Positions 1 through 52,400 of a stretch of 64,000 nt of DNA are shown piece by piece. Source of the stretch: Acanthochlamys bracteata (lineage: Eukaryota; Streptophyta; Magnoliopsida; Pandanales; Velloziaceae); NCBI GenBank assembly GCA_019914995.1, contig CM034128.1, positions 6,202,501 through 6,266,500 of the forward strand, in the 5' to 3' direction. The notes under the pieces were generated by a model. That model saw only the letters and a program-made list of their open reading frames with translations. It was not told the DNA's origin and ran no database searches. A program made the position numbers and the translations under genes. Positions within the stretch are counted from its first letter, which is position 1. Each line of letters starts with the position of its first letter.

Positions 1-1
1 A

Positions 2-1704
2 GAATAATCAACCTTGAAGCAACATCGACAATATCGTCTTGGATAAAACTAATGATTTGACAAAATACACACTGAAGGTTGATATTACAATTATGATCAC
101 TTTAACTGAGAATAACTAAAGGAATGCATCACTAAAGCATCAGTTAAACGCCAGACAGAATTCGTCACATATCAGTACAAATATTAAATCCTCCATAAAA
201 AGGTCAAACAAGAGTTATTTCCGCATTTCATCTCGTCGTGATCTTTATATAAGACATTTCAAGAAACAATTAATCTACCATCTTCTTATCCATCATTTTT
301 AAAAATACTCTACAAAAACTAATTCCAAAAAACAAATTCGGAACGATAGTACCACATTTGGCTTGAGTTCTGGTGACTGCTAGATATAGAAAATCGTCCA
401 AACCTCACAGTAAGACTGCTTAGAAAATAACCCCACGCAATGTCTTCTCCTTCAATTGGTCTAACGACTGAAGAAAATTATAAATAACATTAGATGAAGC
501 TTCCACCAGTCAATTTCAGTACATAGAGAATACATATGCAATTAGAGAAGTCCCTAGTCACTTTGGCATCACATCCACCTCGTACGAGTTACAAACACAG
601 CAACTACTAGAGTTTCTTTTTTGTCACGGTTGGGTTGAAGCTCAAAACTATGCCTGCAAGGAAAAGATGGGGTCAACAATTTGGTTCATAACACGATCCA
701 TATACTTGGAACGTATCTATCTTTAATAATTCCAAACATGCTCAAACAGGAAACTACCAAACTGGATGCTAAAAGTTCGGCGACCCTTCTCAATATGTTG
801 GAGCTTCTTATCCATTAGTCGTAACTAACACTCGGCAAGAACAATCCTGTAGAAATACTGAGTCGGAAGCCAAACTACGAATAAGCACATAGCGAACTAT
901 AAAAAGCCACAAAGCACCAGCCTCTGCATTATCCCGAATACAACTAATGATTTCATAGCAAACCTATCGGAAGGCAAAATTATAATTTATGAGCATATTA
1001 CTTGAAAAGCACTACCAGATTGAATCATTCAAGCATTGAATAAGTTCCCAGACGGAATTCGTTACAGATCAGAAGACACATACTGCATCCTCTGTAGGCC
1101 AAAAAAGAACCCTTACCGCATCACATCTCGCAATTATCTTAGTAGAAGTTATTTTTGGATATGATTAGCATGGCATACTCTCATCTCTCACTTGGATCAA
1201 TGCTCTACAAAATCTAATGGCAAACAAACAATTAAGAAGTAACAGAAGTAGCTTACCTACACTTCTGGTGAGGGCTAGTATACGAAAATTATCCAATCCT
1301 CACAACAAAAATACATCGAAAATAAGTTCGCGCAACTGCTGCTGCTTCTTTTAGTTCAACTTGGTTAAATTTCCACCCTTTGCCATGTTGAAAAAAAAGA
1401 AGCAACAACTAGAGATAATAACGCCCGTGGCCTCTACAATTCAAACTATTCTAACCATAATAATCCCTGACAGGCTCAAAAAACAATAAATAACTGAGAC
1501 AGGGAGTCAAAAGTTCAGAGACACTCCTCAACATGTTGCAGCTAAATTCGTAGTCCCTCCAACATCCAATCCCCATTAGTAGGAGTTTGCACACCCAAAA
1601 GCATTTTCCAACTTCTTGCCCAGCTGTTGCAACCAAACTTCTGCAAGAACTATACCCGCGATATACTGAAATTGGAGGCCGACCTGCAATGAGAACCAGG
1701 GAAC
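2..1704. repeat. Array unit 1
   Basis: First complete unit. The first half runs about 2–892 and the second about 893–1704. It is very similar by eye to unit 2, with mostly single-base differences. Confidence 0.88.
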
Positions 1705-3394
1705 GAATAATCAACCTTGAAGCAACATCGACAACATCGTCTTGGATAAAACTAATGATTTGACAAAATACACACTGAAGGATGATATTATAATTATGAT
1801 CATTTTAAGTGAGAATAACTAATGCAATGTATCACTAAAGCATTAGTTAAACGCCAGACAGAATTCGTCACATATCAGTACAAATATTAAATCCTCTATA
1901 AAAAGGTCAAACAAGAGTTATTTCCGCATTTCATCTCGCCGTGATCTTTCTAGAAGACATTTCAAGAAACAATTAATCTACCATCTTCTTATCCATCATT
2001 TCGAAAAATACTTTATAAAAACTAATTGCAAAAAACAAATTCGGAACGAAAGTACCACATTTGGCATGACTTCTGGTGACTGCTAGATATAGAAAATCGT
2101 CCAAACCTCACAGTAAGACCGCTTAGAAAATAACCCCACGCAATGTCTTCTCCTTCAATTTGTCTAACACCATAAGAAATTTATAAATAACATTAGATGA
2201 AGCTTCCACCAGTCAATTTCAGTACATAGAGAATACATATGCAATTAGAGAAGTCCCTAGTCACTTTGGCATCACATCCACCTCGTACGAGTTACAAACA
2301 CAGCAACTAACTAGAGTTTCTTTTTAGTCACGGTTGGGTTGAAGCTCAAAACTATGCCTGCAAGGAAAAGATGGGGTCAACAATTTGGTTCATAACACGA
2401 TCCATATACTTGGAACGTATCTATCTTTAATAATTCCAAACATGCTCAAACAGGAAACTACCAAACTGGATGCTAAAGTTCGGCGACCCTTCTCAACATG
2501 TTGGAGCTTCTTATCCAATTGTTGTAACTAACACTCGGCAAGAACAATACTGTAAAAATACTGAGTCAGAAGCCAAACTACGAATAAGCACATAGGGAAC
2601 TAATAAAAAGCCACAAAGCACCAGCCTCTGCATTATCCCGAATACAACTAATGATTTCATAGCATACCTATCGAAAGGCAAAATTATAATTTATGAGCAT
2701 ATTACTTGAAAAACACTAGCAGACTGAATCATTCAAGCATTGAATAAGTTCCCCGACAGAATTCGTTACAGATCAGAAGACACATACTGCATCCTCTGTA
2801 GGCCAAAAAAGAACCCTTACCGCATCACATCTCGCAATGATCTTAGCAGAAGTTATTTTTGGAAACGATTAGCATGGCATACTCTCATCTCTCACTTGGA
2901 TCAATGCTCTATTAAATCTAATGGCAAACAAACAATTAAGAACGAACAGAAGTAGCTTACCTACGCTTCTGGTGAGTGCTAGTATACGAAAATTATCCAA
3001 TCCTCACAACAACAACACATCGAAAATAAGTTCGTGCAACTGCTGCTGCTTCTTTTAGTTCACCTTGGTTAAATTTTCCGAGTTTGCCCTGATCAAAAAA
3101 TAGGAGCAACAATTAGAGTTAATAATGACAGTGGCCCCTACGCTTCAAACTTATCTAATCACTAACATGCTCAAAAAACAGCAAACAAATGAAACAGAGA
3201 TGTTCAGAGACACTCCTCAACATGTTGCAGCTAAATTCGTAGTCACTCCAACATCCCGTCCCCCCATTACTAGGAGTTTGAAAACCCAACAGCATTTGCA
3301 ACTTCTTGTCCAGCTGTTGCAACTAAGCTTCTGCAAGAACTATACCTGCGATATACTGAAATTGGAGGCCGAACTGCAATGAGAACCAGGGAAC
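1705..3394. repeat. Array unit 2
   Basis: Second unit. The second half begins near 2590. It contains the first of three 71-codon open frames at equivalent places (2740–2955), beginning MNKFPDRIRYRSEDTYC. Because the frame is lost in other units, I do not regard it as a gene. Confidence 0.88.
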
Positions 3395-5098
3395 GTATAA
3401 GCAACCTTGAGGCAACATCGACAATATTGTCTTGGATAAAACTAATGATTTGACAACATACACACTGAAGGTTGATATTATAATTATGATCATTTGAACT
3501 GATAATAACTAACGGAATGCATCACTAAAGCATTAGTTAAACGCCAGACAGAATTCGTCACATATAAGTACAAATATTAAATCCTCTATAAAAAGGTCAA
3601 ACAAGAGTTATTTCCGCATTTCATCTCGCCGTGATCTTTCTAGAAGACATTTCAAGAAACAACTAATCTACCATCTTCTTATCCATCATTTCGAAAAATA
3701 CTTTATAAAAACTAATTGCAAAAAACAAATTCGGAACGATAGTACCACATTTGGCATGACTTCTGGTGACTGCTAGATATAGAAAATCGTCCAAACCTCA
3801 CAGTAAGACTGCTTAGAAAATAACCCCACGCAATGTCTTCTCCTTCAATTGGTCTAACACCCGGAGAAATTTATAAATAACATTAGATGAAGCTTCCACC
3901 AGTCAATTTCAGTACATAGAGAATACATATGCAATTAGAGAAGTCCCTAGTCACTTTGGCATCACATCCACCTCGTACGAGTTACAAACACAGCAACTAC
4001 TAGAGTTTCTTTTTTGTCACGGTTGGGTTGAAGCTCAAAACTATGCCTGCAAGGAAAAGATGGGGTCAACAGTTTGGTTCATAACACGATCCATATACTT
4101 GGAACGTATCTATCTTTAATAATTCCCAACATGCTCAAACGGGAAACTACGAAACTGGATCCTAAAAGTTCAGTGACCCTTCTCAACATGTTTGAGCATC
4201 TTATCCATTAGCTGTAAGTAACACTCGGCAAGAACAATACTGTGGAAATACTGAGTTGCAAACCAAACTGCGAATAAGCACAAAGGGAACTCATCAAAAG
4301 CCACAAAGAACCAGCCTCTGCATTATCCCGGATACAACAAATAATTTCATAGCATACCTATCGAAAGACAAAATTATAATTTATGAGCATATTACCTGAA
4401 AAACACTAGCAGATTGAATCATTCAAGCATTGGATAAGTTCCCTGACGGAATTCCATACAGATCAGAAGACACATACTGCATCCTCTATAGGCCACCAAA
4501 TAACCCTTACCGCATCACATCTCGCAATGATCTTAGCGGAAGGTATTTTTGGAAACGATTAGCATGCCATACTCTCATCTCTCACTTGGATCCATGCTCT
4601 ACAAAATCTAATGGCAAACAAACAATTAAGAAGGAACAGAAGTAGCATACCTACACTTCTGGTGAGTGCTAGTATACGAAAAATATCCAATCCTCACAAC
4701 AAGAATACATCGAAAGTAACTCCCCGCAACAACTTATGCTTCATTTTGGTCACCTTGCTTAAATTTCCAAACTTTGCCCTGATGGAAAAAAAGAAGCAAC
4801 AATTAGAGTTAATAACGCCTCTGGCCTCTAAGCTTCAAACTATTCCAACCACAATAATCCTTGACTGGCACAAAATACAGCAAACAACTGAGAAAGTGAG
4901 TCAAAAGTTCAGAGACACTCCTCAACATGTTGCACCTAAATTCGTAGTCACTCCAGCATCCGAACCCCATTAGTAGGAGTTAGCAAACCCAACAGCATTT
5001 TGCAACTTCTTGTCCAGCTGTTGCAACTAAGCTTCTGCAAGAACTATACCCGTGATATACTGAAATTGGAGGCCGACCTGCAATGAGAACCAGGGAAC
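3395..5098. repeat. Array unit 3
   Basis: Third unit. The second half starts near 4280. It shares several variants with units 4 and 5, for example 'aagaatacatcgaaagtaac' and 'gcttcattttg/ggt', that units 1 and 2 lack. Units 3–5 therefore form a subgroup. Confidence 0.88.
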
Positions 5099-6751
5099 GA
5101 ATAATAAACATGAAGCAACATCGACAACATTGTCTTGGATAAAACTAATGATTTGACAACATACACACTGAAGGTTGATATTATAATTATGATCATTTTA
5201 ACTGAGAATAACTAACGGAATGTATCACTAAAGCATTAGTTAAACGCCAGACAGAATACGTCACATATCAGTACAAATATTAAATCCTCTATAAAAAGGT
5301 CAAACAAGAGTTATTTCCGCATTTCATCTCGCCGTGATCTTTCTAGAAAACATTTCAAGAAACAATTAATCTACCATCTTCTTATCCATCATTTCGAAAA
5401 GTACTTTATAAAAACTAATTGCAAAAAACAAATTCGGAACGAAAGTACCACATTTGGCATGACTTCTGGTGACTGCTAGATATAGAAAATCGTCCAAACC
5501 TCACAGTAAGACTGCTTAGAAAATAACCCCACGCAATGTCTTCTCCTTCAATTGGTCTAAAACCTGGAGAAATTTATAAATAACATTAGATGAAGCTTCC
5601 ACCAGTCAATTTCAGTACATAGAGAATACATATGCAATTAGAGAAGTCCCTAGTCACTTTGGCATCACATCCACATCGTACGAGTTACAAACACAGCAAC
5701 TAGTAGAGTTTCTTTTTGGTCACGGTTGGGTTGAAGCTCAAACCTATGCCTGCAAGGAAAAGATGGGGTCAACAATTTGGTTCATAACACGTTCCATATA
5801 CTTGGAACGTATCTATCTTTAATAATTCCAAACATGCTCAACCAGGAAACTACGAAACTGGATGCTGAAAGATCAGCGCCCTTCTCAACATGTTGTAGCT
5901 TCTTATCCAACAGTTGTAACTAACACTCTGCAAGAACAATACTGTAGAAATACTGAGTTGGAAGCCAAACTGCGAATAAGTACAAAGGGAACTAATAAAA
6001 AGCCACAAAACACCAGCCTCTGCATTATCCCGGATACAACTAATGATTTCATAGCATACCTATCGAAAGACAAAATTATAATTTAAGAGCATATTACCTG
6101 AAAAACACTAGCAGATTGAATCACTCAAGCATTGGATAAGTTCCCTGACGGAATTCGTTACAGATCAGATGACATATACTGCATCCTCTATAGGCCACAA
6201 AAGAACCCTTACCGCATCACATCTCGCAATGATCTTAGCGGAAGGTATTTTTGGAAACGATTAGCATGCCATACTCTCATCTCTCACTTGGATCCATGCT
6301 CTATAAAATCTAATGGCAAACAAACAATTAAGAAAGGACAGAAGTAGCATACCTACACTTCTGGTGAGTGCTAGTATACGACAAATATCAGATCCTCACA
6401 ACAAGAATACATCGAAAGTAACTCCCCGCAACAACTTCTGCTTCATTTTGTTCACCTTCCTTAAATTTCCAAACTTTGCCCTGATGGAAAAAAAGAAGTA
6501 ACAATTAGAGTTAAAAACGCCTCTGGCCTCTAAGCTTCAAACAATTCCAACCATAATAATCCTTGACGGGCTCAAAAAACAGCAAACAACTGAGAAAGGG
6601 AGTCAAAAGTTCAGAGACACTCCTCAACATGTTGCAGCTAAATTCGTAGTCACTCCAGAATCCGAACCCCATTAGTAGGAGTTAGCTTCTGCAAGAATAT
6701 ACCCGCGATATATTGAAATTGGAGGCCGAATTGCAATGAGAACCAGGGAAC
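5099..6751. repeat. Array unit 4
   Basis: Fourth unit, shorter because about 48 bp near 6685 that other units have ('aacccaacagcattttgcaa' and the following bases) are missing. Confidence 0.88.
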
Positions 6752-8429
6752 TAATAATCAACCTTGAAGCAACATCGACAATATCGTCTTGGATAAAATT
6801 AATGATTTGACAACATACACACTGAAGGTTGATATTATAATTATGATCATTTTAACTGAGAATAACTAACGGAATGCATCACTAAAGCATCACTTCAACG
6901 CCAGACAGAATTCGTCACATATCAGTACAAATATGAGTTATTTCCGCATTTCATCTCGCTGTGATCTTTGTAGAAGATATTTCAAGAAACAATTAATCTA
7001 GCATCTTCTTATCCATCATTTTGAAAAATACTCGATAAAAACTAATTGCAAAAAACAAATTCGGAACGAAAGTACCACATTTGGCTTGACTTCTGGTGAC
7101 TGCTAGATTTAGAAAATCGTCCAAACCTCACAGTAAGACTGCTTAGAAAATAACCCCATGCAATGTCTTCTCCTTCAATTGGTCTAACACCCGGAGAAAT
7201 TTATAAATAACATTAGATGAAGCTTCTACCTGTCAATTTCAGTGCATAGACAATACATATGCAATAAGAGAAGTCCCTAGTCACTTTGGCATCACATCAA
7301 CGTCGTACGAGTTACAAACACAGCAACTACTAGAGTTTCTTTTTGTCACGGTTGGGTTGAAGCTCAAAACTATGCCTGCAAGGAAAAAATGGGGTCAACA
7401 ATTTGGTTCATAACACGATCCATATACTTGGAACGTATCTATCTTTAATAATTCCCAACATGCTCAAACAGGAAACTACGAAACTGGATGCTAAAAAAAG
7501 TTCAGTGACCCTTCTCAACATGTTTGAGCATCTTATCCAATAGTTGTAACTAACACTCGGTAAGAACAATACTGTGGAAATACTGAGTTGCAAGCCAAAC
7601 TGCGAATAAGCACAAAGGGAACTCATCAAAAGCCACAAAGAACCAGTCTCTGCATTATCCCGGATACAACAAATAATTTCATAGCATACCTATCGAAAGA
7701 CAAAATTATAATTTATGAGCATATTACCTGAAAAACACTAGCAGATTGAATCATTCAAGCATTGGATAAGTTCCCTGACGGAATTCGATACAGATCAGAA
7801 GACACATACTGCATCCTCTATAGGCCACAAAAGAACCCTTACCGCATCACATCTCGCAATGATCTTAGCGGAAGGTATTTTTGGAAATGATTAGCATGCC
7901 ATACTCTCATCTCTCACTTGGATCCATGCTCTACAAAACCTAATGGCAAACAAACAATTAAGAAGGAACAGAAGTAGCATACCTACACTTCTGGTTAGTG
8001 CTAGTATACGAAAAATATCCGATCCTCACAACAAGAATACATCGAAAGTAACTCCCCGCAACAACTTCTGCTTCATTTTGTTCACCTTGCTTAAATTTCC
8101 AAACTTTGCCCTGATGGAAAAAAGAAGCAACAATTAGAGTTAATAACGCCTCTGGCCTCTAAGCTTCAGGCTATTCGAACCACAATAATCCTTGACTGGC
8201 TCAAAATACAGCAAACAATTGAGAAAGGGAGTCAAAAGTTCAGAGACACTCCTCAACATGTTGCAGCTAAATTCGTAGTCACTCCAGCATCCGAACCCCA
8301 TTAGTAGGAGTTAGCAAACCCAACAGCATTTTGCAACTTCTTGTCCAGCTGTTGCAACTAAGCTTCTGCAAGAACTATACCCGCGATATACTGAAATTGG
8401 AGGCCGACCTGCAATAAGAACCAGGGAAC
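6752..8429. repeat. Array unit 5
   Basis: Fifth and last regular unit. It lacks about 29 bp near 6931 that other units contain ('taaatcctctataaaaaggt' and following). Confidence 0.88.
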
Positions 8430-11400
8430 GAATAATCAACCTTGACGCAACATCGACAATATCGTCTTGGATAAAACTAATGATTTTGACAACATACACA
8501 CTGAAGGTTGATATTATAATTATGATCATTTTAGCTGAGAATAACTAACGGAATGCATCACTAAAGCATCACTTCAACGCCAGACAGAATTCGTCAAATA
8601 TCAGTACAAATATTAAATCCTCTATAAAAAGGTTAAACAAGAGTTATTTCCGCATTTCATCTCGCCGTGTTCTTTCTAGAAGATATTCAAGAACCCATTC
8701 ATCTAGCATCTTCTTATCCCTCATTTCAAAAAATACTCTATAAAAACTAATTGCAAAAGACAAATTCGGAACGGAAGTACCACATTTGGCTTGACTTCTG
8801 GTGACTGCTAGATTTAGAAAATGGTCCAAACCCCACAGTAAGACCGCTTAGAAAATAACCCCAGGCAATGTCTTCTCCTTCAATTGGTCTAACACCTGAA
8901 GAAATTTATAAATAACATTAGATGAAGCTTCCACCAGTCAATTTCAGTACATAGAGAATACATATGCAATTAGAGAAGTCCCTAGTCACTTTGGCATCAC
9001 ATCCACGTCGTACGAGTTACAAACACAGCAACTACTAAAGTTTTTTTTTTTTTGTAACAGTTGGGTTGAAGCTCAAAACTTTGCCTGCAAGGAAAAGATG
9101 GGGTCAACAATTTGGTTCATAACACGATCCATATACTTGGAACATATCTATCTTTAATAATTCCCAACATACTCAAACAGGAAACTACGAAACTGGATGC
9201 TAAAAGTTCAGTGACCCTTCTCAACATGTTGGAGCTTCCTGTCCAACAGTTGTACCTAAGCTTCTACAAGAATGATTATCCGCGATATACTAAAATTATA
9301 GGCCAAACAGCAATAAGCACCACGAACTAAGTAGCAACCGCAACAGAGCTTCGCCAATATCGTTATGGATAAAACTAATGATTTGACAACATACCTACGA
9401 ACTGATAATATTATAATTATGATCATGTTACCTGATAATAAGAACAGATTGCATCATTAATTCATCAGTCAAGCACCCAGACAGAATCCATCATTAAATC
9501 CTAGAAAGGTCAAACGGGAGTTATTTCTGCATCTCATCTCGACGTGATTTTTCTAAAAGATATCTCAGGAAACAATTAATATAGCATCTTCTTATCTCTC
9601 ATTTGAAAAAATGCTCTATAAAAATGAATTGCAAACAACAAATTCCAAAGGAATGTACCTAACTTTGCTAGACCTCTGGGCATTTCTAGATTTAGAAAAT
9701 CGTCCAAACCTCACAGTATGACTGCTTAGAAAATAACTCCATGCATCGTCTTCCCTATCACTTGATCTAACATCTGAAGAATTTGAAAACTAACATTAGA
9801 TCAACCTTCAACCAGTCAATTTCAAAACAAAGAGAATACATATGAAATTTGAGAAGTCCCTAGTCACTTTGGCATCACATCCACATCGTAGGAGATTCAA
9901 ATTCCCAGCAACTACTGGAGTTCCTTTTATGACGCGGTTGGGTTAGAGCTCCAAACTATGCCTGCAAGGAAAAAATGGGGTCAACAATTTGGTCCAAACA
10001 TTCCATCCACATCAGTAGGAGTTTGCAAACCCAACAACATTTTGCAGCTTCTTGTACAACAGTTGTACCTAAGCTTCTGCAAGAACGATACTAGCAATAT
10101 ACTGAAGTTGGAGGCCAATCTGCAGAAAGCACCAGGGAACTAATAAGCAAAAGCGATGCAGCATCGCCAATATCGTTTTGGATAAATCTAATGATTTGAC
10201 AACATACCTACAGACTGATAATATTATAATTATGATCAGGTTACCTTAGAATAAGTAACAGATTGCATCATTTAAGCATCAGATAAGCTCCCAGACAGAA
10301 TCCGTTACAGATTAGTTGAAATTTTAAATGCTCTACATCATCCTTCTAGAAGATATTTTCGGAAATAATTAATATAGCATCTTCTTATCTCTCATTTAAA
10401 AAAATGCTCTACAAAAATGTATTGCAAACAACAAAATCCAAAGGAATGTACCTAACTTTGCTAGACGTTTTCGGATTTCTAGTTTTAGAAAATTGGCCAA
10501 ACCTCACAGTAAAATTGATTTGAAAATAACTCCATGCATCCTCTTCCCCATCACATGATCTAAGAATTTTAAAACTAACATTAGATCAAGCTTCGAGCAG
10601 TCAATTTCAAAACAAAGATAATACATATGAAATTAGAATAGTCCCTAGTCACTTTGGCATTACATACACATTGTAGGAGTTTCAAAAACCGGAGTTTCAT
10701 TTATGTCACAGTTGGGTTCAAGCTCGAAGCTATGTCTGCAAGGAAACGATGGGGTCAACAATTTAGTTTATAACACAGCATATACTTGGAACTTATCTAT
10801 CTTTACTAATTACAAACATGCTCAAACAGTAAACTACGAAAGTGGATGCAAAAAGTTCAGTGACCCTTCTCAGCATGTTGCAGTCACTTATCCAATAGTT
10901 TAAAGTAACACTCGACAAGAACAATACTGTAGATATACCGAGTTGGAGGCCAAGCTACGAATAAGCACAAAGGTAAACAGAAGTAGCTTACCTACACTTC
11001 GGGTGAGCGCTAGAATACGAAAATTATCCAATCCTCACAACAAGAATACATCGAAAGTTCGCGCAACAGCTGCTACTTATATAGTTCACCTTCGTTAAAT
11101 TTCCATACTTTACCCTGATAAAAAAATAGGAACAACAATTAGAGATAATAACGAAAGTGGTCCCTACGCTTCAAATTTATCTGACCATAATAATCACTAA
11201 CATGCTCAAAAAGCATTAAACAACTGAAAAGGATAGTTAGAAGTTCAGAGACACTCCTCAACATGTTGCAACTAAATCCGTAGTCACTCCAAACATCCAT
11301 CCACATCAGTAGCAGCTCGCAAACCCAACAAAATTTTGCAGCTTCTTGTCCAGCAGTTGTAACTAAGTTTCTGCAAGAACTATGCCTGCAATATACTGAA

Positions 11401-14400
11401 ATTGTGGGCTGAACTGCAATGAGCACCAGGGAACAAATAAGTAACCTTGATGCAACATCGACAATATCGTCTAGGATAAAACTAATGATTTGACAAGATA
11501 CATACTGAAAGATGATATTATAATTATGATCATTTTAACTGAGAATAACTAACAAATTGCATCATTAAAGCATCAGTTAACCTCCCAGACAGAATCTGTA
11601 ACAAATCAGTAGAAATATTAAATCGTCTATAGGTCAAACAAGACTTATTGCACATCTCATCTCGCCGTGATCTTTCTAGAAGATATTTCAGGAAACAATT
11701 AATCTAGCATCTTCTTATCTCTCATTTCAAAAAATGCTCTATAAAAACGAATCAAACAACAAATTCCGAACTAAAGTACCACATTTGGCTTGACTTCTGG
11801 TGACTGCTAGATAGAAAATCGTCCAAACCTCCCAGTAAGACTGCTTCGAAAATAACCCCATATGCAATGTCTTCTCCTTCAATTGGTCTAACACCTGAGC
11901 AATTTTATAAATAACGTTAGATCAACCTTCAAGCAGTCAATTTCAATACATAGAGAATACATACGAAATTAAAGAAGTCCCTAGTCACTTTGGCAAACAG
12001 CAAACCACTAGACATGATGCTAAAAGTTCAGAGACCCTTCTCAACATGTTGCAGCTTCTTATCCAAAAGTTGTTACCAACTCTCGACAAAAAGGCACAAT
12101 GCACCGAACTCAACAATATCTCCGATAGAACTAATTATTTCGTAGCACACCTATCAAAAGACAAAATGATAGTTTATAAACATATTCCTTGAAAATCACT
12201 AGCAGATTGAATCATTCAAGCATTAGATAAGTTCCCAGAAAAAATCCGTTACAGATCAGAAGACACATACTGCATCCTCTATAAGCCAAAACACACCCTT
12301 ACCCCATCTCATCTCGCAATGATATTAGCAGAAGGTATTTTTGGAAACAATTAGCTTGGCATACTCTTATGTCTCACTTGGATCCATGCTCTATAAAATC
12401 TAATGGCAAACAAACAATTAAGAAAGAACAGAAGTAGCTTACCAACATCCAAAGAATTTCAAAACTAACACTACATCCAGCTATAATCCGTCTATTTCAA
12501 AACACAGAAAATAAATATGAATCTGAGAAATCCCTAGTCATTGCGGCATCATATCACACTAGTAGCTACTAATGCTTCTTTTTTAAGTGACCATTGGGTG
12601 TTAGCTCCAAGCTATGCCCTGCAAGGAAAATACATGGTCAACAGTTAGCATTCATAACGCTGGTCCGAGCGTGCTCAAACAGTAAACTACAAAATATGGA
12701 TGTTAAATGTTCAGAGACCCTCCACGATATGTTGCTTCTTAGCCAATAGTTGTAACTAAAACTTGGCAAGAATAATACCATAGATATAACGAGTTGGAGG
12801 CCAACACTGCAAATAAGCACCAAAGGAACTAACTAAAGACCACAATGCAACATCCTCGACATTGTCCCGAATAGAACTAATGATTTCACAGCATACCTAC
12901 CAATGGACAATGATAATTATGCACATATTACTTGGAAATTGTTAATAGATTGCATCATTGAAGTATTAAATAAGTTCCTAGACGGAATTCGATAAAGACC
13001 AGAAAACATACTACATCCTTATAGGCCAAAGCAGAGCCATTGCCGCACATCATCTCGTTATGATCTTCCCAAAAGGTATTTTAGTAAAATTATAATTGCA
13101 TATTCTTCTCTCACTTGGATCAATGCTCTAGACTTCTGATGAGTGCTAGAATATAAAATTCATCCAAAGCTCACAATAAGACTACATCGTAGATAACTAC
13201 ACGCAGTGTCCTCCCCTTGCATTATTTTAGATACAACAATCAATCGGCCAATTTCAAACCAGAGAAATACCTATGTATCTGAAATATCCCTAGTCACTAT
13301 AACATCTCATCCACGTCAGTAGCAGTTTCAGAAACCCAGCAACTTTTATTGCTTCTTTGTAGGTCACCATTGGTTACATTTCCATGTTATGCACTGCAAG
13401 GGAAAAAGGGAGCAACTATAGAGTTCACAATGCCGGTGGTCACTATACTCGCAACTTATCTAACCATAATAATCCCCCACAAGCTCAAGCAGTAAACAAC
13501 TGAAAAAGGGAGTCAAAAGTTCAGAGACACTCCCCACATGTTGCAGCTAAATCCTTAGTCACTCACATCTCATGCACATAAGTAGGAGTTTCAACACTAA
13601 GCAACAGCTTGCAGCTCCTTATCCAACAGTTATAACTAAGCTTCTGTAAGAACAACACAGAGTTGGACGCCAAACTGCAATAAGCACCCAGCCAATTGAT
13701 AAGAAAACCACAATGCAACATCCTTAAAATCGTCTTGGATAAAATTAATGGTTTGATACATACCTACTGAAAGAAAGTATTATAATTATGTAGATATTAC
13801 CTGAAAATAACTAACACACGGCATCATTAAAGAGCTAGGTAATTTCCCAGGTAAGCTACTGGGTAAGCTCAGGAAATACTGCATCAATGATTAGTAGACA
13901 TTTTAAATCCTCTATAGGCCTAAAAAGAGTTAGTGCCGCATCTCATCTAGCATCATATAACCAGAAGATATTTCAGAAAACAATTACATCGCATATTCTT
14001 GTCCCACATTTGGAAAGATGCTCTATAAAAACGAACGAAAAACAACAAATTCAGAAAGAACATACATTACATGGTTAGACTTCTGATGACCGGTAGATTT
14101 AGAAAATCACAGTAAGACTGTTAGAAAATAACTCTATGCAACGTCTTACCCTTCAATTGATCAAGCATCTGAAGAATTTTGAAAATAACATTAGATCTAG
14201 CTTTATCAGCCAATTCCAAAAAAATAAAAATAAATATGAAATTGCGAAATTCCTAGTCACTGCAGCATCACATCCACATCAGTAGGAGTTTAAAATACCA
14301 GCAACTACTGGTGTTTCTTTTAAGACACGATCGGATTTAAGCTCCAAGCTATGCCCTGCAAGGAAAAGATTGGGTCAATAATTAGAGTTCATAACGCTGG

Positions 14401-15230
14401 TCGATATCCTTGGAACTTATCTATTTTTAATAATTTCCAACATGCTTAAACAGTAAACTATCAACAAATGGATGTTAAAAGGGTCGAAGTCTCGCCTCAA
14501 CATGTTGCAGCTTCTTATCCTATCCTTGTAATTAAGCCTCAAACAATCCCACATATATACTCAGTTGAAGGCCGAACTGCAAATAAGCACCAAAGGAACT
14601 AATAAAAAATCACAATGCGACATCCTCAACATTGTCTCGGATGGAAATAATGATTTCACAGCATACCTATAGAATGACTTAATGACAATTATGAATATTA
14701 CCTGAAAATCACTAACAGATTGCATCATTAAAGCATTAGATAAGCTCCCAAACGTTGTCCATTACAGAACAGAAGACATATTACATCCTTTATAGGACCA
14801 AACAGAGCCATTGCCGCATCTCGTCTCGCTATGATCTTCCCAGAAGGTAATTTGCGAAAAATTAGATTCTCATATTATTATCTCTAACTTGGATCGATGC
14901 TCCAAAAAACTAATGGCAAAGAAAATATCCAGACGAAACAGAAGTAGCTTACCTAGACTTCTAGTGAGTGCTAGAATACGAAATCATCCAATCCTCACAA
15001 CAAGAGTACATCCAAAATAACTCCACACAACATCCTCCCCATCGGTTGATCTAACAGTAGAAGAATTTTAAAATTATATTAGATCCAGATATCAATTAGT
15101 CAATTTCAAAACACTATAGTTGAGAAATCCCTAGCCACTGCAACACTTAGACAGCAGCAGCAGCAGTTTGAAAAACACAGCAGCTATAGCTGCATCCTTT
15201 AGCTCAATATTGGTAGCAAGCAAAAAATTG
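8430..15230. repeat. Degenerate, register-shifted edge of the array
   Basis: Array sequence continues, but the regular dimer is lost. 8430–9330 is a first-half unit fused directly to the tail of a second half. Similar ~800-bp half-units follow at about 9331–10141 and 10142–10960, then partial second- and first-half pieces up to about 15230. Divergence rises to the right; the pieces at 12.8–15.2 kb are recognisable only by anchors such as 'acttctNgtgagtgctaga' and 'caacatgttgcagcttctta'. This pattern is typical of an array edge out of reach of homogenisation. A short CAG run lies at about 15152–15166. Confidence 0.85.
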
Positions 15231-15519
15231 TATACCAACTATCAGAGTTTGCAACGTGGTGATCCTTATGCTTGCAACTTAGAGAACAGTAGTGAAGGTT
15301 CAGATTAGCGGAAACTATACTAAAGTATATATGACCATAAAAGTATCGATCAGGGAAAGATTTGTCATAACCAGAAGAAAAAAAAGGTATTGTTGACATC
15401 AATCATCGAATCCACAACAAATTAGCGGAAAATCTACAAGCAATATTTGAAAAAAAAGAATTTTAAATAAAAATAAAAAAGGCATATAAAAGAACATAGA
15501 CTGCACACAAACCGTACCT

Positions 15520-15657
15520 TACCTAGCCCTCCTAGCAATCAACTTTGAATCCTCCATAACAAATCCCAAAATTCCCAACAAAAAATGAAATGTAACACGA
15601 AAACAAATTCAGATACAACCTGCTGATAATCTAGAAAATAACGAATGCCCACAAAAC
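15520..15657 (-). repeat. Third, diverged copy of the first-exon block
   Basis: On the minus strand this repeats the end of the 526-bp blocks to its right: a 'ctgataatc' acceptor-like site, the 'gttgggaatttNgggattt' stretch, and a terminal 'AGGTAAGGTAC' donor-like site. It differs at many positions, so it is older than the other two copies and only its downstream part is present. Confidence 0.65.
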
Positions 15658-16183
15658 GTACCTTACCTTGCCCCATCTTCCAACGAATCTTGAGTCCTCC
15701 AATAAAAATCCTGAAATTCCCAACAAAAATAAAAATATAACGTAGGAAGAAATTTGGATACGAACCTTCTGATAATCAAGAACGCCGACTGCATCAACTA
15801 TCGTGCAACGTTTCCCAATAATCAACCAATTTTCTCAAACATCTTGCTAGTTGCAACGACTCCTCGGTGTTTCACTTTATGGTGATGAGAACTTGAAAAA
15901 ATAATAATGAAAAGAATTTTCAAAATCAAATAGTAACAGTCCACCAAAATCACCCGAAATCAAATTAACGTAAACCATGATCGAGCTCTCCAAACAATCT
16001 CCCTCTCCAATCGAAAACCTAAACCCTACCTGACTTTAGAAGAACACTCGCAAGATTTTTGAAGATACTCAACACAGGCAGACAGACAGAAATATTAACA
16101 CAAACAAATATTCGAGAAAGTACACTCTGCTGATAGGAAAGAGAGAAATCCGGCGGTTGATACTTATAATTATCACATTAGAA
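15658..16183 (-). repeat. Promoter/first-exon duplication, downstream copy
   Basis: 526-bp block nearly identical to 16184–16707. Read on the minus strand it has a leader ending 'cttctaaagtcag' with a GTAGGG donor (exon end 16030), an intron-like stretch, a 'gattatcag' acceptor region, and a second segment with ATGGGGCAAG (ATG at 15676–15674) running into a GTAAGG donor after 15667. The encoded start would be Met-Gly-Gln plus a split codon beginning with G. The protein cannot be named from this. Confidence 0.72.
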
Positions 16184-16707
16184 GTACCTTACCTTGCCCC
16201 ATTTTCCAACGAATCTTGAGTCCTCCAGTAAAAATCCTGAAATTCCCAACTAAAAGTGAAATATAACGTAGAAAGAAATTTGGATACGAACCTGCTGATA
16301 ATCAAGAACGCCGACTTCTTCAATTATCCTGCAACATTTCCCAATAATCAACCAGTTTTCTCAAACATTTTGCAAGTAGCAACGACTCCTCGGTGTTTCA
16401 CTTGATGGTGATGAGAACTTGAAAAAATAATAATGAAAACAATTTTAAAAATCAAATAGTAACAGTCCACCAAAATCACCCGAAACCAAATTATCGTAAA
16501 CCATGATCGAGCTCTCCAAACAATCTCCCTCTCCAATCGAAAACCTAAACCCTACCTGACTTTAGAAGAACACTCGCAAGATTTTTGAAGATACTCAACA
16601 GAGGCAGACAGACAGAAATATTAACACAAACAAATATTCGAGAAAGTACACTCTGCTGATAGGAAAGAGAGAAATCCGGCTGTTGATAGTTATAATTATA
16701 ACATTAG
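16184..16707 (-). repeat. Promoter/first-exon duplication, upstream copy
   Basis: Second block, about 95% like its neighbour by eye. On the minus strand it has 'ttataattata' (TATA-like) at its upstream end, a leader ending at 16556 before GTAGGG, the intron motif 'gtagggtttaggttttcg' common in plant 5' leaders, and ATGGGGCAAG (ATG at 16202–16200) followed by GTAAGG after 16193. Because the block includes the promoter-like segment, each copy could start transcription. Confidence 0.72.
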
Positions 16708-17775
16708 TAAATGCGAACGGTACGGATTTGTATCCGTTGGAAATTGGACAACGCTGTCATTATTGTTAAAATTCTAAATAGTTTACAGCTATAGTTATTA
16801 TAGTTTATGAAAAAAGCCTTGCTTTATAGGCGAACCGTTTTTTTTTCAGCTTTGTTTCATTTTGCATGATTAGTATAATATAAAAAATTATGTTACATTA
16901 GAAGTGACTATACCAAGCATAAAACTAATTCTAAATATATATAATATAAATATCTATAAAAAGTGTTCAAATATTTATTCAAAATTAATTTGCATAATTT
17001 ATTATTTAATTTATAAATATTAATATAAAAAAGTATTTATACAATTATTACAAAATAATACATAAAAAATTTAAAAACTTAATAATATATTAATTATTAT
17101 ATATTTAAAAATATTAATTATTTTATATTTTATTTAGAAATAAATATAATTTAGTTAAACCTTAAAACTGCTTTCGCACCATAAAATATCTTTATTGTAA
17201 GAGCTTAAAAGTTTTTGGTACTTTCAAACAGAGCCTTCATGCTCTCATTAAAAATCTAGCGTGTAAAGCAAGCCAAATAACCAATCTCCGCAAGTTTCTT
17301 AATATATAAACAGTAAAATAAACTAAATTAGTTTTATTTATGAATTATTTTCTATTCATTACATATTTGGGTTATTGTTACATTCATCATGCAACTGAAT
17401 TTCCTCTTAACCCGTTTATGAACCTTGTAACTAGCTTGTATGAATAAAGGGTGCGTTTTAGAATCAAGATGGAAGATTATTTCAGGGAAGACTGCATGGC
17501 TAAGGCCTAACGAAGAAGAAGGCTATTTCGTTAAGTGCTGGATGGAGAAGAAGTATTCAGGTAAAACTTATCTAATTGAGCTCATTAGACATTAATTGGG
17601 AATGATGCACCTTGTAGAATGCAAGAATTTAAAATATAAGATGTAGAATTGTAATTATGAAAGCCTAACATTAACCAAAATTTGTTTATCAATAATATGG
17701 TAGAGATAATAAACTTGTTTAATATACAATCAGCCCAGCAATACAGTCCAATAACTGCCAGCTTTTTGTAGCTTA
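16708..17775. other. AT-rich intergenic DNA
   Basis: Upstream side of the minus-strand first-exon blocks. Very AT-rich from about 16860 to 17170, with no open frame of substance. No gene or clear transposon end was recognised. Confidence 0.6.
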
Positions 17776-35264: not shown

Positions 35265-35606
35265 TTAACAGATCAAGTAATGGGCACCTCTTGCAGCCAA
35301 TCTGATCTTATTAAGCTTCTGAGCTTTCAACTGCTCAACATCAGAGCTGAACATCACTGCAAAGAGCTCAAAAACACAATCAGAAAGTAATTGATAACAT
35401 GGATCACATGCATAACGCTCAACATCCCGTTTGGCGAGCTCAAAGTGCTTCTGGCGCCTGAACGATGCAACATTCGCAATCTTCACCTGATCAAGCCTAG
35501 TGGAGATCCTCTCTTCCTGTAAGGGCTTCTTCTTAAATTCAGCGCCAATAACGAACAAAGTGAATGAAACAAGCTCGATGAACATGTCAATCAGCTTCTC
35601 AGGCAA
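35265..35606 (-). pseudogene. DUF2828-like gene fragment inside the CACTA element
   Basis: 113-codon frame. Residues about 50–105 read RRQKHFELAKRDVERYACDP, then CYQLLSD, ELFAVMF, SDVEQLKAQ and LNKIRLAA. This follows the DUF2828 (plant T31B5-30-type) pattern 'AxxALxRYxxDPxYxxLxDxVxxLFA…LNKIxLAAKWCPS'. The family proteins are several hundred residues long and of uncertain function; only this central stretch is here, and the conserved WCPS segment that should follow is replaced. It is most simply a captured fragment carried by the element, not a working gene. Confidence 0.6.
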
Positions 35607-35872
35607 AGACTTTCTTTAACCCATCCTATCAATTCAAGCTGCTGTAACAATATTTCCAACAAACCTTGCTTCTCCTTGGCCGTCGCAATTTCTTTGGCCT
35701 GAGCGCATGTCACGGCTGACAGTTCCAGGTGTTGGGGATCGATGACAAGCAGCACTCCAGGATCAATTGAGAACGAAGAGGCCATCAGCAGGTGATTTTG
35801 GGGGCCGGATCTACGCCGATCAAGGGGCCGTGGGTCAAACCTCCTCAAATCTTCATTGCCCGCCGGAAACAA
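35591..35872 (-). pseudogene. Unassigned coding-like frame in the CACTA element
   Basis: 93 codons overlapping the DUF2828-like frame by 16 nt. It contains a helix-prone stretch AQAKEIATAKEKQGLLEILL. No family recognised. It is probably part of the same captured or element-derived coding block. Confidence 0.35.
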
Positions 35873-40498: not shown

Positions 40499-43400
40499 GT
40501 CCGTTTCTCAGTTCTTCTTCTTCTTTTTTCTTCTTTTTTTTCTTGTATTTTTTCTCGTTCCCCTTGAATTCTTAATTAATGCATTTACTTTGCTTGGTTT
40601 ATGTTCCTTTCCTTTCTTCATTGCTTGATATTTTTTCCAGCTTTTAATGGGTTTTTAGGTTGATATGTATGGGCTTTTTTCCGGAAGTACTGATTGGTGA
40701 TAATGACTAAATTTAAATTTGAATTCCGTGGCTGAAAATTTAGTGTAGACTGAGAGAAAACTTTTTTGTGATGAATTTTGAAACTTAAGTTTTCAATAGG
40801 TTTATTTTGAATTATATAAACTGTGCTCTAGCTATATAATGCCTAAACTTATTTTGACTTCTATTTATTCTATTTCTTTCTACCATTACTTGGTTGATCT
40901 TAACTATTTTTTTTTTCTGGGTTGTTGATAAGATGCTGGTATTAACTATGTTTGTCAGAGACTTTTTGACTTGTGAGCAGCTGATCCCTATCCGTACTCT
41001 CATTAACTATGTTGATAAGCAGTTTATGGGACGTGCGTAGACAAACTAGTTCAATACAATCCTATATCAACGTGAATCACCTCTTAACGCCCCTCTGGTC
41101 TTCCTGTTATCTTCTCATTCATCTAGGCTGATTGCCCGTGTCAGACACAAATCATGAATTGTGTGGTACTGGCACGGGGGATTGTGCCATTTTAACTTGG
41201 GTACTCCTTGGAAAATGGTGAGTTCAAGTAGCTCAGCTCGTAAATGTATGAGCAAGTCCCCTTTTTGCAATCTTATGGTGATGCATCATTGCAAACCACT
41301 TCATTTTCTAGAAACAAAGAGATAGGAATGTTGATGTTCCGATTTGTGTAGTATGGCAGGATGAGCTATAGAAGTTTTATGTATTGAAAAATTTGATGAC
41401 TTTGGTAGTGTGCTGCTTGAAGTGAATTAAATAAATGAAGATAAAACAAGATGAGAGAAGCATGGGGAACCTTCATTTGACATTTCTTTGTCTTCTGAAT
41501 TAAAACTTCAACCTTGTTACGAAACTAGATGCTAATAAACATTAGAATGAGTAATACAAAGATTTAAGTCTATCGACTGGTAGGTTATTAGATTAGACAA
41601 GAAAGTATGATTATGCTTTGACAAAATCCACATTCTAAAGAGTTGTGACCTTTATCTAAGCAATAAACAAGTCAAGTCTTACCCCTCAATGGATCAAACC
41701 CCCTAATGGTGGTTATGGTTAATATATGTTATAATAGATGGTTAAATGTACATTTGTATATAATGGAAAATTTGATGTTGAAACTTCACAGAATCTGCAT
41801 CTCTCATGCAAACATCTAGTAGGAGACTTTGTTGCAAACATCTAGGACCGTAAAACATGATTGTGATTGTCATCCATTTCAAGAATTATTATATAAAAAA
41901 ATGAACCTAAGAGCAGAGAATATTGACTTGTAAGTGCTTTTTGAATTTTTGATTGTCTATTCCTTTGAGAAGGTACACTTTCCAATTTTAAGAGAGGTCT
42001 CTATTCCAGTTCTTACTGCATTTGCTTGTGAGATTTTTTTCCCCTGTTGCCTTTGTAAGTGTTTTCTTATTTTGTTGGCAATGATGAAGAAAAGGCCGGA
42101 CATACCACTACCCTGATATTTGAATTTCGGTTGGCAGTACGATGGTGACTCGAATTGTAAGGTTCTGCCTGAGCCAATTGGATATCCTGTTTCTTCTATT
42201 AATTTTCTAATTTTCTACTTTTGCTGTAGATCCAGTATAATGATTCTTGTTATGGTGAAATTTTGTTCATCATCTTCTATAATTATGCTAAAAAAGATAT
42301 TTTTGTTCAAGATGTTGTGAAAAGTCCATTGCTTGTAAACTTTGATGGTGTTGTCTTATTCTAGCTAATGCTATTTTGATGACCAATAGGAGAATATGAT
42401 CAGCGATTTTATCTAATGTATTTCTCTCCAATTATGACCATAGGGAGCTCTCTACGTAGCATGGAAGTAGGAGCTGGAATAGTATAAATTGCAAAACCTT
42501 TTGTGCTATCTTCCTAGATGATAGTATTTAGATGTTTGGAACGAAGTGCTTTATGGTTTCTTCTATAGGAACTCATAAGTCCTATGCAATTTATATATCT
42601 AAACGTTTTGATGTTTCTTGATCTTTTCCTAGAGGCTAGTTCCTTAATGTTTCATACTCTTTGAAATGATTAGCACTTTTGTATTTATCCTTTCCGGAAG
42701 GTCTAAATACATTGCTGAAAAGATTGTATCCTTAAATCTGTTCCCTTAACTATAAAATTAATAATGGTGTAAGGAAGAGAAATACCATCCTCCAACACAA
42801 GGTCAACCTGGGTGGTTTAAAATATTAGCATGATTGTTAGAATTCCTTTGAAACATAGCTTGAGAAGAGGGGGGAGGGGAGCAGCCAATGAGTTGAGTGC
42901 TATCATTAACTTTTTTTTTTTTTTTCAATTTTAGGGAAAACAATTGAATGTTTTGCTGTTATAAATTGCACAGAGAGATTATTAGCGAAATTTGAGTAAA
43001 TCAAGCAATCAATCCAGAGGAGCCACAGAACTTCACCGTAGTTCAGCAACCCCAATCTACATTCATGACATCTTGAAAACTCACTAGAGAATTTATCATA
43101 AAAGTCAATAATTTTTTTTTTCAATTTTAGGTAAAACAATTGAATGTCTTGCTGTTATAAATTGCACAGAAAGATTGTTAGCGAAATTTGAGCAAATCAA
43201 GCAATCAATCCAGAGGAGCCACAGAACTTCACCGTAGTTCAGCAACCCCAATCTACATTCATGACATCTTGAAAACTCACTAAAGAATTTACACTAACTT
43301 TCATGAAGTTACAAATCGAGGCTTGATGTTGCACCCAAACACTTTCGTCTCAACTAGGGTTTCCTTAGTAGGCAAACTTTAAGCTAGCCTCTCAGACTTT

Positions 43401-49400: not shown

Positions 49401-52400
49401 TTGATTGACTGATGTTTCCATGCTCTAGTATACTTGCACTATCTTTTACAGTTAAGTTCTCCCCTAAGGATCTGTTTGGATAAGGAACTTTCAAATACAT
49501 GGATTTCCAAATCTTGCCTTGGCTGAGTTGGCTCTGAAGTTTCTTTGTTTTGGATCAGAAAAATTTTCTACTATGAAATTTTCCAAAATGAGTTTCAAAT
49601 TATTTTCATAATTAATTAGAAATTTGCTTTAGCACAGTCAATTGCTTATGGAAGTGCTTTTTGAGGAGCTGCTTTCGTATAAGTGCCTTTCGACCAGCAT
49701 TTTTATAAAAAATAGTGTTTTTGAATAAGCAATTTTGTAAAGGGTGCTTTTTGGATAATAAGTTTTGGAAACAATTATTTAGATAAATAGTTCTGCAGAA
49801 AATAAAAAAGAAAGGCGTTCTAGGTTATTGTCAAATGTGTTTCTGGAAAAATATTTTGAAATAATAGTCTTGCAGAAGTGACTTTGTTGAAGTGTTACTT
49901 CAAATATATTTATCAATAAGAAGTGAACTTAAGAAAGAAAATGTACTAGAGAACAACAATTAGATTATAATAGTCTGATCTTTGCAAATAACATCTATTT
50001 AGCAGTGATTTGTAAAGTATATTTTGAAGGGCTTAAATACACTCTACAATTCCTTGGGATTTTGCATGTCATTCATTCAAACTTTTATACTATCCAAAAC
50101 TGGTATTTTTTAAGGAATTTGTAAATACCTCTTAGAAATAATTTACACTCTTGAAGTGTACTATGCAGATGGGCTTGAAGTACTTATATTTGTATTGTGA
50201 TTCATTGTTTCCTTATACATGGTTATGGAACTTATACAATTTATGAACATATCCCTTCTGCAAGCCCATCAATATGGGAGTTAACTTTATTAGTTCTGTC
50301 CCAGGGAAACCATCTATTCACATGCTCACATACGTCCCCACCCTTTAGTTGGCATGACCCACTAAATCAAGGTGTATTGAACATTTTATGTTCCTACTAA
50401 TTTCTTTCTGTATTGCTCAGTTCATCACAAATATCCTTTTAGTAATTCAACTTGAGCCTACTGTTTGTTGACGGCCTACCAGTGTTATTTATAATGCTTA
50501 AAGCAATATTCCTGTTGGGAAGAGAATTGCTATCCCTGAAACATAATTGAATTGTCTATGTGAAAACTTATCGAGTTTAGGTTAGTGTAGGAGTATGCAA
50601 AACCTGATACTCGAATTTTTATATTCTGGGAAAAGTTCTTTGAAAAAATCACAAATATAATAACATGCTAAGCTTATATAGAATGAAAGTAATTGAACTG
50701 GACATAGTGTGTAGACTGCGTAGGAGCATAATATTTAACTTTAATGTCAAACTTATAAGGGTAAGTATAACATTCCAATGACATAGTAGGGTTATAGATT
50801 ACAGCAAACTTTGAGTCTGTCATCATCCTCTTGGAACTTGTGTAGTTCACATGTGTGTAGAAGTATTGCTTATTATCAAAAACCTAGATGGCCTTATTTC
50901 TAATGCTGCTGATGCTTTTACTGAAGCTAGACAGTGAAGCATCTTAGTGTGGCTTCCATATAGTAAATTGCAATTTGGATCTTTTTCAGGTGAGAGTTCA
51001 TAATGGAGAGTCTTATCTAATGTATAATAAAAGATTCTCTTCATTTGCTTTATATGGGGGGAAGTTCACTGGTGATTTTCATCCTTATCAAGCTTCCACA
51101 AAGTATCAAACAACCAAATATGATGAAGAACTTCTGCTCCAGCTAAGGTCTTGGTTACCCAATCATCAAGTAAGCATACGTTTTCTTTATTCTAGAACCA
51201 TGTATTCTGGTAATTGTTTCTTATCTTTCATGTGCAGGGTTATTTCACAAATGTATTCTTGTCTTTGTTTTTGAAATTGAAATTTACATATAATCAAATA
51301 ATTATGTCTTAGTGTTCTAAAAATTAGTAGTTAAGCTTTTCCAAATTTCAAATAAGAAATATCATAGGAAATGTCAGTTTCTTATTCATATTTCACAATA
51401 TATATATATTCTTTGATGAAACGTTAATAGTAGATAATTGTGTTCTTTTCTAAAGGAAATTAGAAAATGAGGTAATATCTTCTACCTATTACCATTATCA
51501 GTCCATCATTGTGAGGTATTTCTGAAGTTTACTATATGCATTTTGACATGCGGTTTTTATTCCGTCTAAAATTTTCTTCAACAAATTATAAGATGGATGC
51601 AATTGGCCTTCTAAATGTCTCTGACTTATATTCCATAAAAGAGACAATCTCCTAAAATCTAAGTCTAGAAGCTAGTTTTGGATGATCAGCTATTCCTTTT
51701 ATCTTAAAGTACTGTTGAAGCCTTATAAGTTGTAAGTTCCTATTTCTTTTGTAAATTAAATCCTTAGTTAGATAGTATTTTATGAATCCTAGCTATTGGA
51801 GAGGAGTTATATGCCTTTTCTCAGCTCACTTGATCAGTGAGATCAACAATCTAGTTCTCGCATGAATTTGTTGTTTACTTTGGTATTCTTAATATGTGAT
51901 TTTTAGTTCCCTTGTAATAATTCCTTGAACTTGCCCTAGCTGGTTGGATGCTTATGCGCTTTTGTGATCATATTGTGTGCAGACACGCATATTGGTGGAT
52001 TCATAGGCTCATGCTCATGTAGGCTACAAAGCTTTTGTAAAATCTTTACATTGAATTTTAATGGTTACTTTCAAAAGTCAAAGTTGAAATGGAAATTATA
52101 AAGGTTGAAGTTGATCTACAACATTTAAGATGTGTACTAATGGATTTCACGACTATTTATCATGTTTTGATCATCAATGATAAGATTTGATAAATGGATG
52201 CATACAGAGCTTGAAGGCTAAAACTGTTGCGCTAAAAGAAGTGTGTTTATAGATCTTGACTTTTTAAAACTCGATTGTTGGTCGACATACGAGTCCTCGA
52301 CTTTATCTGTCCTGATCTCGTTTGTCTTCTCCTTTGCTATAATCGCATGTTGCCATTATGAGGACAAATGGTCACAATCTCCTCTTCCATTAATTATCAC

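Follow-up and report, generated by a model that had tools for sequence, protein, structure and literature searches.

A two-level 1.7-kb tandem array with a decayed edge in plant-like DNA, probably a local higher-order satellite

Higher-order repeats have mostly been studied in megabase-scale centromere arrays, which are hard to assemble, and in alpha satellite arrays diverged monomers lie at the edge. In most flowering plants, centromeric units are roughly nucleosome-sized, according to the accessible portion of one account (PMC8122249). Higher-order patterns are also described for the Lathyrus sativus satellite FabTR-2, whose multimers are built from a 49-bp unit (PMC7004042, in the part of the text available). 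In FIRRE, local repeats of 67 to 804 bp are multiplied within one locus; in the available part of the report, they mostly overlap introns in mouse and are defined as being separated by nonrepeating sequence (PMC4820808).

The locus considered here lies in a window of 64 kb (the whole stretch of DNA that was analyzed), of which bases 1 to 15282, at the very start, form a single tandem array. Like the L. sativus satellites, including the Ogre-derived ones in the available text of PMC7004042, this is a plant tandem array, and like FabTR-2 it has a higher-order pattern. Its half-units of 0.72 to 0.97 kb are unlike the 49-bp base unit of FabTR-2 (same source and extent) and, for an array known from sequence alone, unlike the plant centromeric units of about nucleosome length described in the consulted part of PMC8122249. 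A literature search returned no description of this repeat that we recognized, which is weak evidence, as subscription literature lay mostly beyond its scope, and a scan of bacterial and archaeal contigs for 30-mers gave zero matches, a result uninformative about plants.

By its predicted content, the window is eukaryotic and plant-like. Pfam matched 4 of 10 window open reading frames (ORFs) at E values up to 0.1, including an OB_POT1A domain at 62270-62608 (plus strand; E = 4e-22) and a POT1 domain at 50948-51274 (plus strand; E = 2.3e-5, below the cut-off); pieces of a POT1-like telomere-protein gene extend over 50948-62608 on the plus strand. A DUF2828 (PF11443) ORF lies on the minus strand at 35265-35615 (E = 2.7e-07; 30.3 bits versus a cut-off of 29), and a DUF4764 match (E = 0.031) fell below its cut-off. 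From its ORFs and from general knowledge, we take the region at 20-36.5 kb to be a minus-strand gene. Rfam identified a snoR113 C/D-box snoRNA at 42076-42177 (62.3 bits versus a cut-off of 47), which, together with the POT1 domains, we presume to be plant-type. TRF reported a 196-bp tandem duplication in two copies (42916-43291; 96% matches).

The 1.7-kb tandem array proposed by the sequence-only reading proved to be real. Spacings between 12-mers in 1-17000 had their top peak at 1691 bp (score, 3077). Its multiples were also seen near 3374, 5033, and 6735, along with a weak maximum at 794; a further peak near 524 comes from a 526-bp duplication at 15658-16707, outside the array. Self-BLAST aligned 2-9335 with 1705-10987 at 87% identity, and inside the edge (offsets of <2600) it returned only pieces of ∼63 to 83% identity at irregular offsets. 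A half-unit profile tiled the array over 3-15282 on the plus strand and had zero matches elsewhere in the 64-kb window; with filters off, the array's own tail was its sole match in 15201-64000. TRF was limited to a period of 500, and the array is absent from its list. The array is cut by the window start, making 15,282 bp a lower bound on its length. As for the extent originally given, 1-15230, the array is indeed there, with its end at 15282 and regular dimers in 1-9219 only.

That young, regular part (1-9219), delimited by dimer identity and the half-unit alignment, consists of a cut A half (1-788) before the first complete dimer and five complete B+A dimers, which start at 789, 2492, 4182, 5884, and 7514 and measure 1703, 1690, 1702, 1630, and 1706 bp, respectively. 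The decayed edge (9220-15282), recognized by own-type identity, the tree, and profile tiling, holds eight half-units of both types, starting at 9220 (A), 10033 (A), 10869 (B; 388 bp, deleted), 11257 (A), 12040 (B), 12711 (B), 13532 (A), and 14496 (B). Half-unit boundaries were set at the CTCAACATGTTG block, which occurs 17 times versus 0.22 expected. Two boundaries were placed by hand, namely 12711 as a start and 15249, which is 33 bp before the profile end, as the end of the last half-unit.

The two half-unit types differ in length and sequence. B halves measure 724 to 739 bp and are without about 150 bp found in A, and complete young A halves measure 891 to 968 bp, including a leader of ∼72 bp. 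In an alignment of 19 half-units, young A halves are 94 to 96% identical to one another and young B halves 88 to 97%, and A-B identity is only 63 to 67% there, or 63 to 68% overall. The five complete dimers are 91.8 to 95.6% identical in pairwise comparisons (neighbors average 94.0%; the most distant pair, 91.9%), so that dimers resemble each other more closely than do the halves within a dimer. A maximum-likelihood tree of the 19 half-units (856 columns) separated 10 A-type from 9 B-type sequences as distinct clades with 100% ultrafast bootstrap support, and this split included the eight decayed half-units. Within the B type, the halves at 4182, 5884, and 7514 were grouped (99%) and those at 789 and 2492 were grouped weakly (55%). 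The two halves of a unit are therefore not nearest relatives; first and second half types cluster separately, as expected under the proposed two levels of diverged halves and conserved dimers. Given the fully supported split and the low A-B identity, we conclude that the 1.7-kb units are a true higher-order structure.

A third level of 0.25 to 0.3 kb had also been hinted at, based on the caacatgttgcagc block, and here the initial interpretation did not hold: the block recurs about once per half-unit. It has 17 matches at ≤3 mismatches (0.22 expected), spaced 724 to 968 bp apart except for one interval of 388 bp (the deleted half-unit) and one of 1492 bp (a diverged copy was missed). When the B and edge consensus sequences were divided into halves and thirds, internal similarity was at the level of chance in simulation. 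The A consensus scored 25 versus simulated means of 14 to 16.5, a signal that comes from one block of ∼57 to 60 bp doubled ∼0.7 kb apart, as the leader and a later copy. A profile found the doubled block at seven junctions (five with E ≤0.016 and two with E values of 0.27 and 0.88), and the edge contains a single pair spaced by 265 bp (13286-13343 and 13551-13605; 79%). We regard the ∼57-bp doubling in A as a junction duplication and reject a third tandem level. The earlier interpretation as a whole is thus borne out for the dimer with diverged halves and not for the inner repeats.

The array is layered. Compared with the young consensus of their own type, A halves in 1-9219 are 96.0 to 97.2% identical and B halves 90.6 to 92.7%; in order along the edge, the values are 80.7, 82.0, 89.1, and 76.2% for A halves and 83.2, 82.0, 77.8, and 77.6% for B halves. 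Own-type identity falls with position (Spearman coefficient of −0.84 for 10 A halves and −0.68 for 9 B halves), with most of the drop occurring in one step at 9.2 kb. This pattern is like that of alpha satellite, in that diverged monomers sit at the array edge. We take the gene-like right edge to be the oldest part of the array and the copies farther from it to be the youngest, a layering that unequal crossing-over would leave. The gradient is uneven: the A half at 11257 (89.1%) is nearer to the young copies than are those at 9220 (80.7%) and 10033 (82.0%), which sit between it and the young array. These two A halves break the simple order, so some rearrangement is needed. In the tree, the half-unit at 10869 groups within the clade of young B halves (100% for that clade) and the young A halves have the one at 11257 as their sister (100%), making the adjacent B+A pair at 10869-12039 the nearest to the amplified dimer. 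Based on this placement, a dimer resembling 10869-12039 was probably the founder of the young array. Heavy decay by methylation was considered and rejected, as no strong signature was seen in singletons (77 transitions versus 93 transversions), in C-to-T changes (9 of 42 at CG sites on both strands, counted manually and without a formal test), or in CpG observed/expected ratios (young, 0.68; old, 0.55; leader, 0.97; rest, 0.60).

We favor the reading that the array is a noncoding higher-order satellite, probably local, that would have grown by unequal exchange between misaligned copies, and we give this a probability of about 0.78. In this reading, an ancestral unit of <1 kb was duplicated long ago and gave rise to types A and B, whose present identity is ∼65%. 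The diverged half-units of both types at the right edge may be the remains of an older mixed array, from which a B+A pair, with its nearest relative in the window at 10869-12039, would have been amplified as a 1.7-kb block. Repeated exchange could then have kept the amplified blocks similar, and the edge copies, which carry substitutions and deletions, would have decayed after escaping homogenization. Amplification of a multimer as a block would be like that of centromeric higher-order repeats, both primate alpha satellite and plant centromere arrays. On these sequence criteria, the array qualifies as a higher-order satellite, and it is clearly a new example of an already known mode of repeat growth.

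Such a satellite could instead derive from a transposable element, for example from tandem repeats in the 3′ untranslated region of an LTR retrotransposon, and be here by chance. The majority of L. sativus satellites have been reported to have such an origin, in the available part of PMC7004042. This array is unlike the Ogre-derived members of that set (same source) in having no retrotransposon sequence, within Pfam's limits: no transposon domain was found among the Pfam matches of 50 ORFs and four of six stop-masked consensus frames. The unit is also absent elsewhere in the 64-kb window, and we consider a transposon origin improbable.

The local satellite reading leaves the unit's content to be explained, and here we favor neutral, noncoding DNA. 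Decayed protein-coding exons would account for the similar open stretches that recur between copies, such as those of 117 and 131 amino acids on the minus strand. The longest open frame in the array, 136 amino acids, is at the chance level (125 ± 21 in 200 simulations), substitutions show no 3-base periodicity, and every frame of the consensus halves contains stops; thus, neither the conserved frame nor the codon periodicity of protein-coding tandem exons was found. Pfam searches of 50 ORFs (47 of the 52 touching the array plus 3 from the flank) gave no credible match. Twelve families matched weakly, with one ORF each and a best E value of 0.001; three of these, COG5_N, SPT_ssu-like, and LysM3_LYK4_5 (E = 0.001 to 0.003; flank ORFs among those scanned), might be taken to favor exons, but no family was matched by more than one copy, and the four stop-masked frames, of six from one consensus, gave nothing below an E value of 0.24. 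We therefore regard coding exons as very improbable.

Two other candidates for function were rejected. For structured RNA, Rfam had no match in 1-17500 at E values up to 1, and the consensus fold of 9 of the 19 half-units was weak: across 1017 columns it reached −8.1 kcal/mol, and its covariation term was unfavorable, although 6 of 41 pairs had two-sided changes in at least one sequence. For a conserved protein-binding box, the palindrome CAACATGTTG was the candidate, but the lowest-entropy block lies elsewhere in the unit and its 20-column mean entropy (0.278) is not below the permuted mean minimum (0.274); no 20-column block of the unit is conserved beyond permutation. No sequence-specific function of the array is supported.

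The array was also said to abut gene-like DNA. In favor of this, the flank at 15.5-16.7 kb resembles the 5′ region of a gene; the nearest Pfam-supported pieces are ∼20 kb (DUF2828) and ∼36 kb (POT1) away. A tandem duplication with 526-bp spacing (15658-16181 and 16184-16707, minus strand; 95% identity) has the appearance of a minus-strand gene's promoter and leader. The duplication carries a AAACCCTA box of presumed significance. On the same strand, a 90-bp block that appears exon-like is present in three copies (15527-15616, 15672-15761, and 16198-16287; 71 to 72% identity), of which 15527-15616 is an older copy, and AG|GTAAGG donor-like sites lie beside the blocks at 15524, 15668, and 16194.

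Based on these features, transcription might run through the array, which would then be intron-like sequence within a minus-strand unit that begins near 16.1-16.7 kb, a possibility we hold only tentatively. The minus strand of the array contains 16 copies of the donor motif AG|GTAWG (2.0 ± 1.5 expected) and the plus strand one (1.1 expected); three more lie on the minus strand of 15283-16800 (0.16 expected). The 16 array sites fall in two alignment columns (9 and 7 of 19 half-units), indicating that they were inherited rather than independent. A raw acceptor count of 30 was inflated by overlapping matches and reduces to one minus-strand column (11 of 19 half-units). The array is A- and C-rich on the plus strand (GC skew, −0.174; AT skew, +0.159), in the same sense as the flank at 15283-16800 (AT, +0.247; GC, −0.200) and the region at 20-36.5 kb (AT, +0.122; GC, −0.079) and opposite to the POT1 region (AT, −0.042; GC, +0.016). 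Because the copies share ancestry, the repeated sites and the skew amount to roughly single observations. The gene regions of the window show no enrichment of this donor motif (20-36.5 kb, minus strand, 2 versus 1.9 expected; POT1 region, plus strand, 2 versus 2.3 expected), and the motif's failure to mark them weakens the hint of transcription.

If transcribed, the array would possibly be like FIRRE in having repeats multiplied within one locus (PMC4820808, in the text available). One layout of this kind would be a tandem exon-intron cassette of a minus-strand long noncoding RNA, with a leader near 16.1-16.7 kb and repeated exons spliced from the array. The two donor columns, the acceptor column, the three flanking donor-like sites, and the repeated 90-bp blocks are all consistent with it. 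Each splice-like site, however, is found in just 7 to 11 of 19 half-units, and the sites are not unusually invariant: only one of the three is low in variation at all (16% of windows vary as little), with 83 and 47% for the others. Conservation of the span from acceptor to donor does not exceed that of the remaining sequence (0.281 versus 0.270), and B halves are without about 150 bp of it. Together with the lack of any acceptor-like match in the leader flank (0) and of donor enrichment in gene regions, this makes such a cassette unlikely. As far as its sequence can tell, the array is moreover unlike FIRRE, as the available part of PMC4820808 presents it, in being head-to-tail and without a conserved exon-like repeat. 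It is quite unlikely that the locus is the plant equivalent of a transcribed macrosatellite, in which the array would lie inside a minus-strand noncoding unit, promoter-proximal exons and body would both be tandemly multiplied, and the repeat would supply splice sites.

The edge, an older decayed layer, the copy most closely related to the founder pair, and a young homogenized layer all lie within 15 kb. The array is thus a readable record of how higher-order structure arises, and it could show whether unequal exchange works alike outside centromeres.
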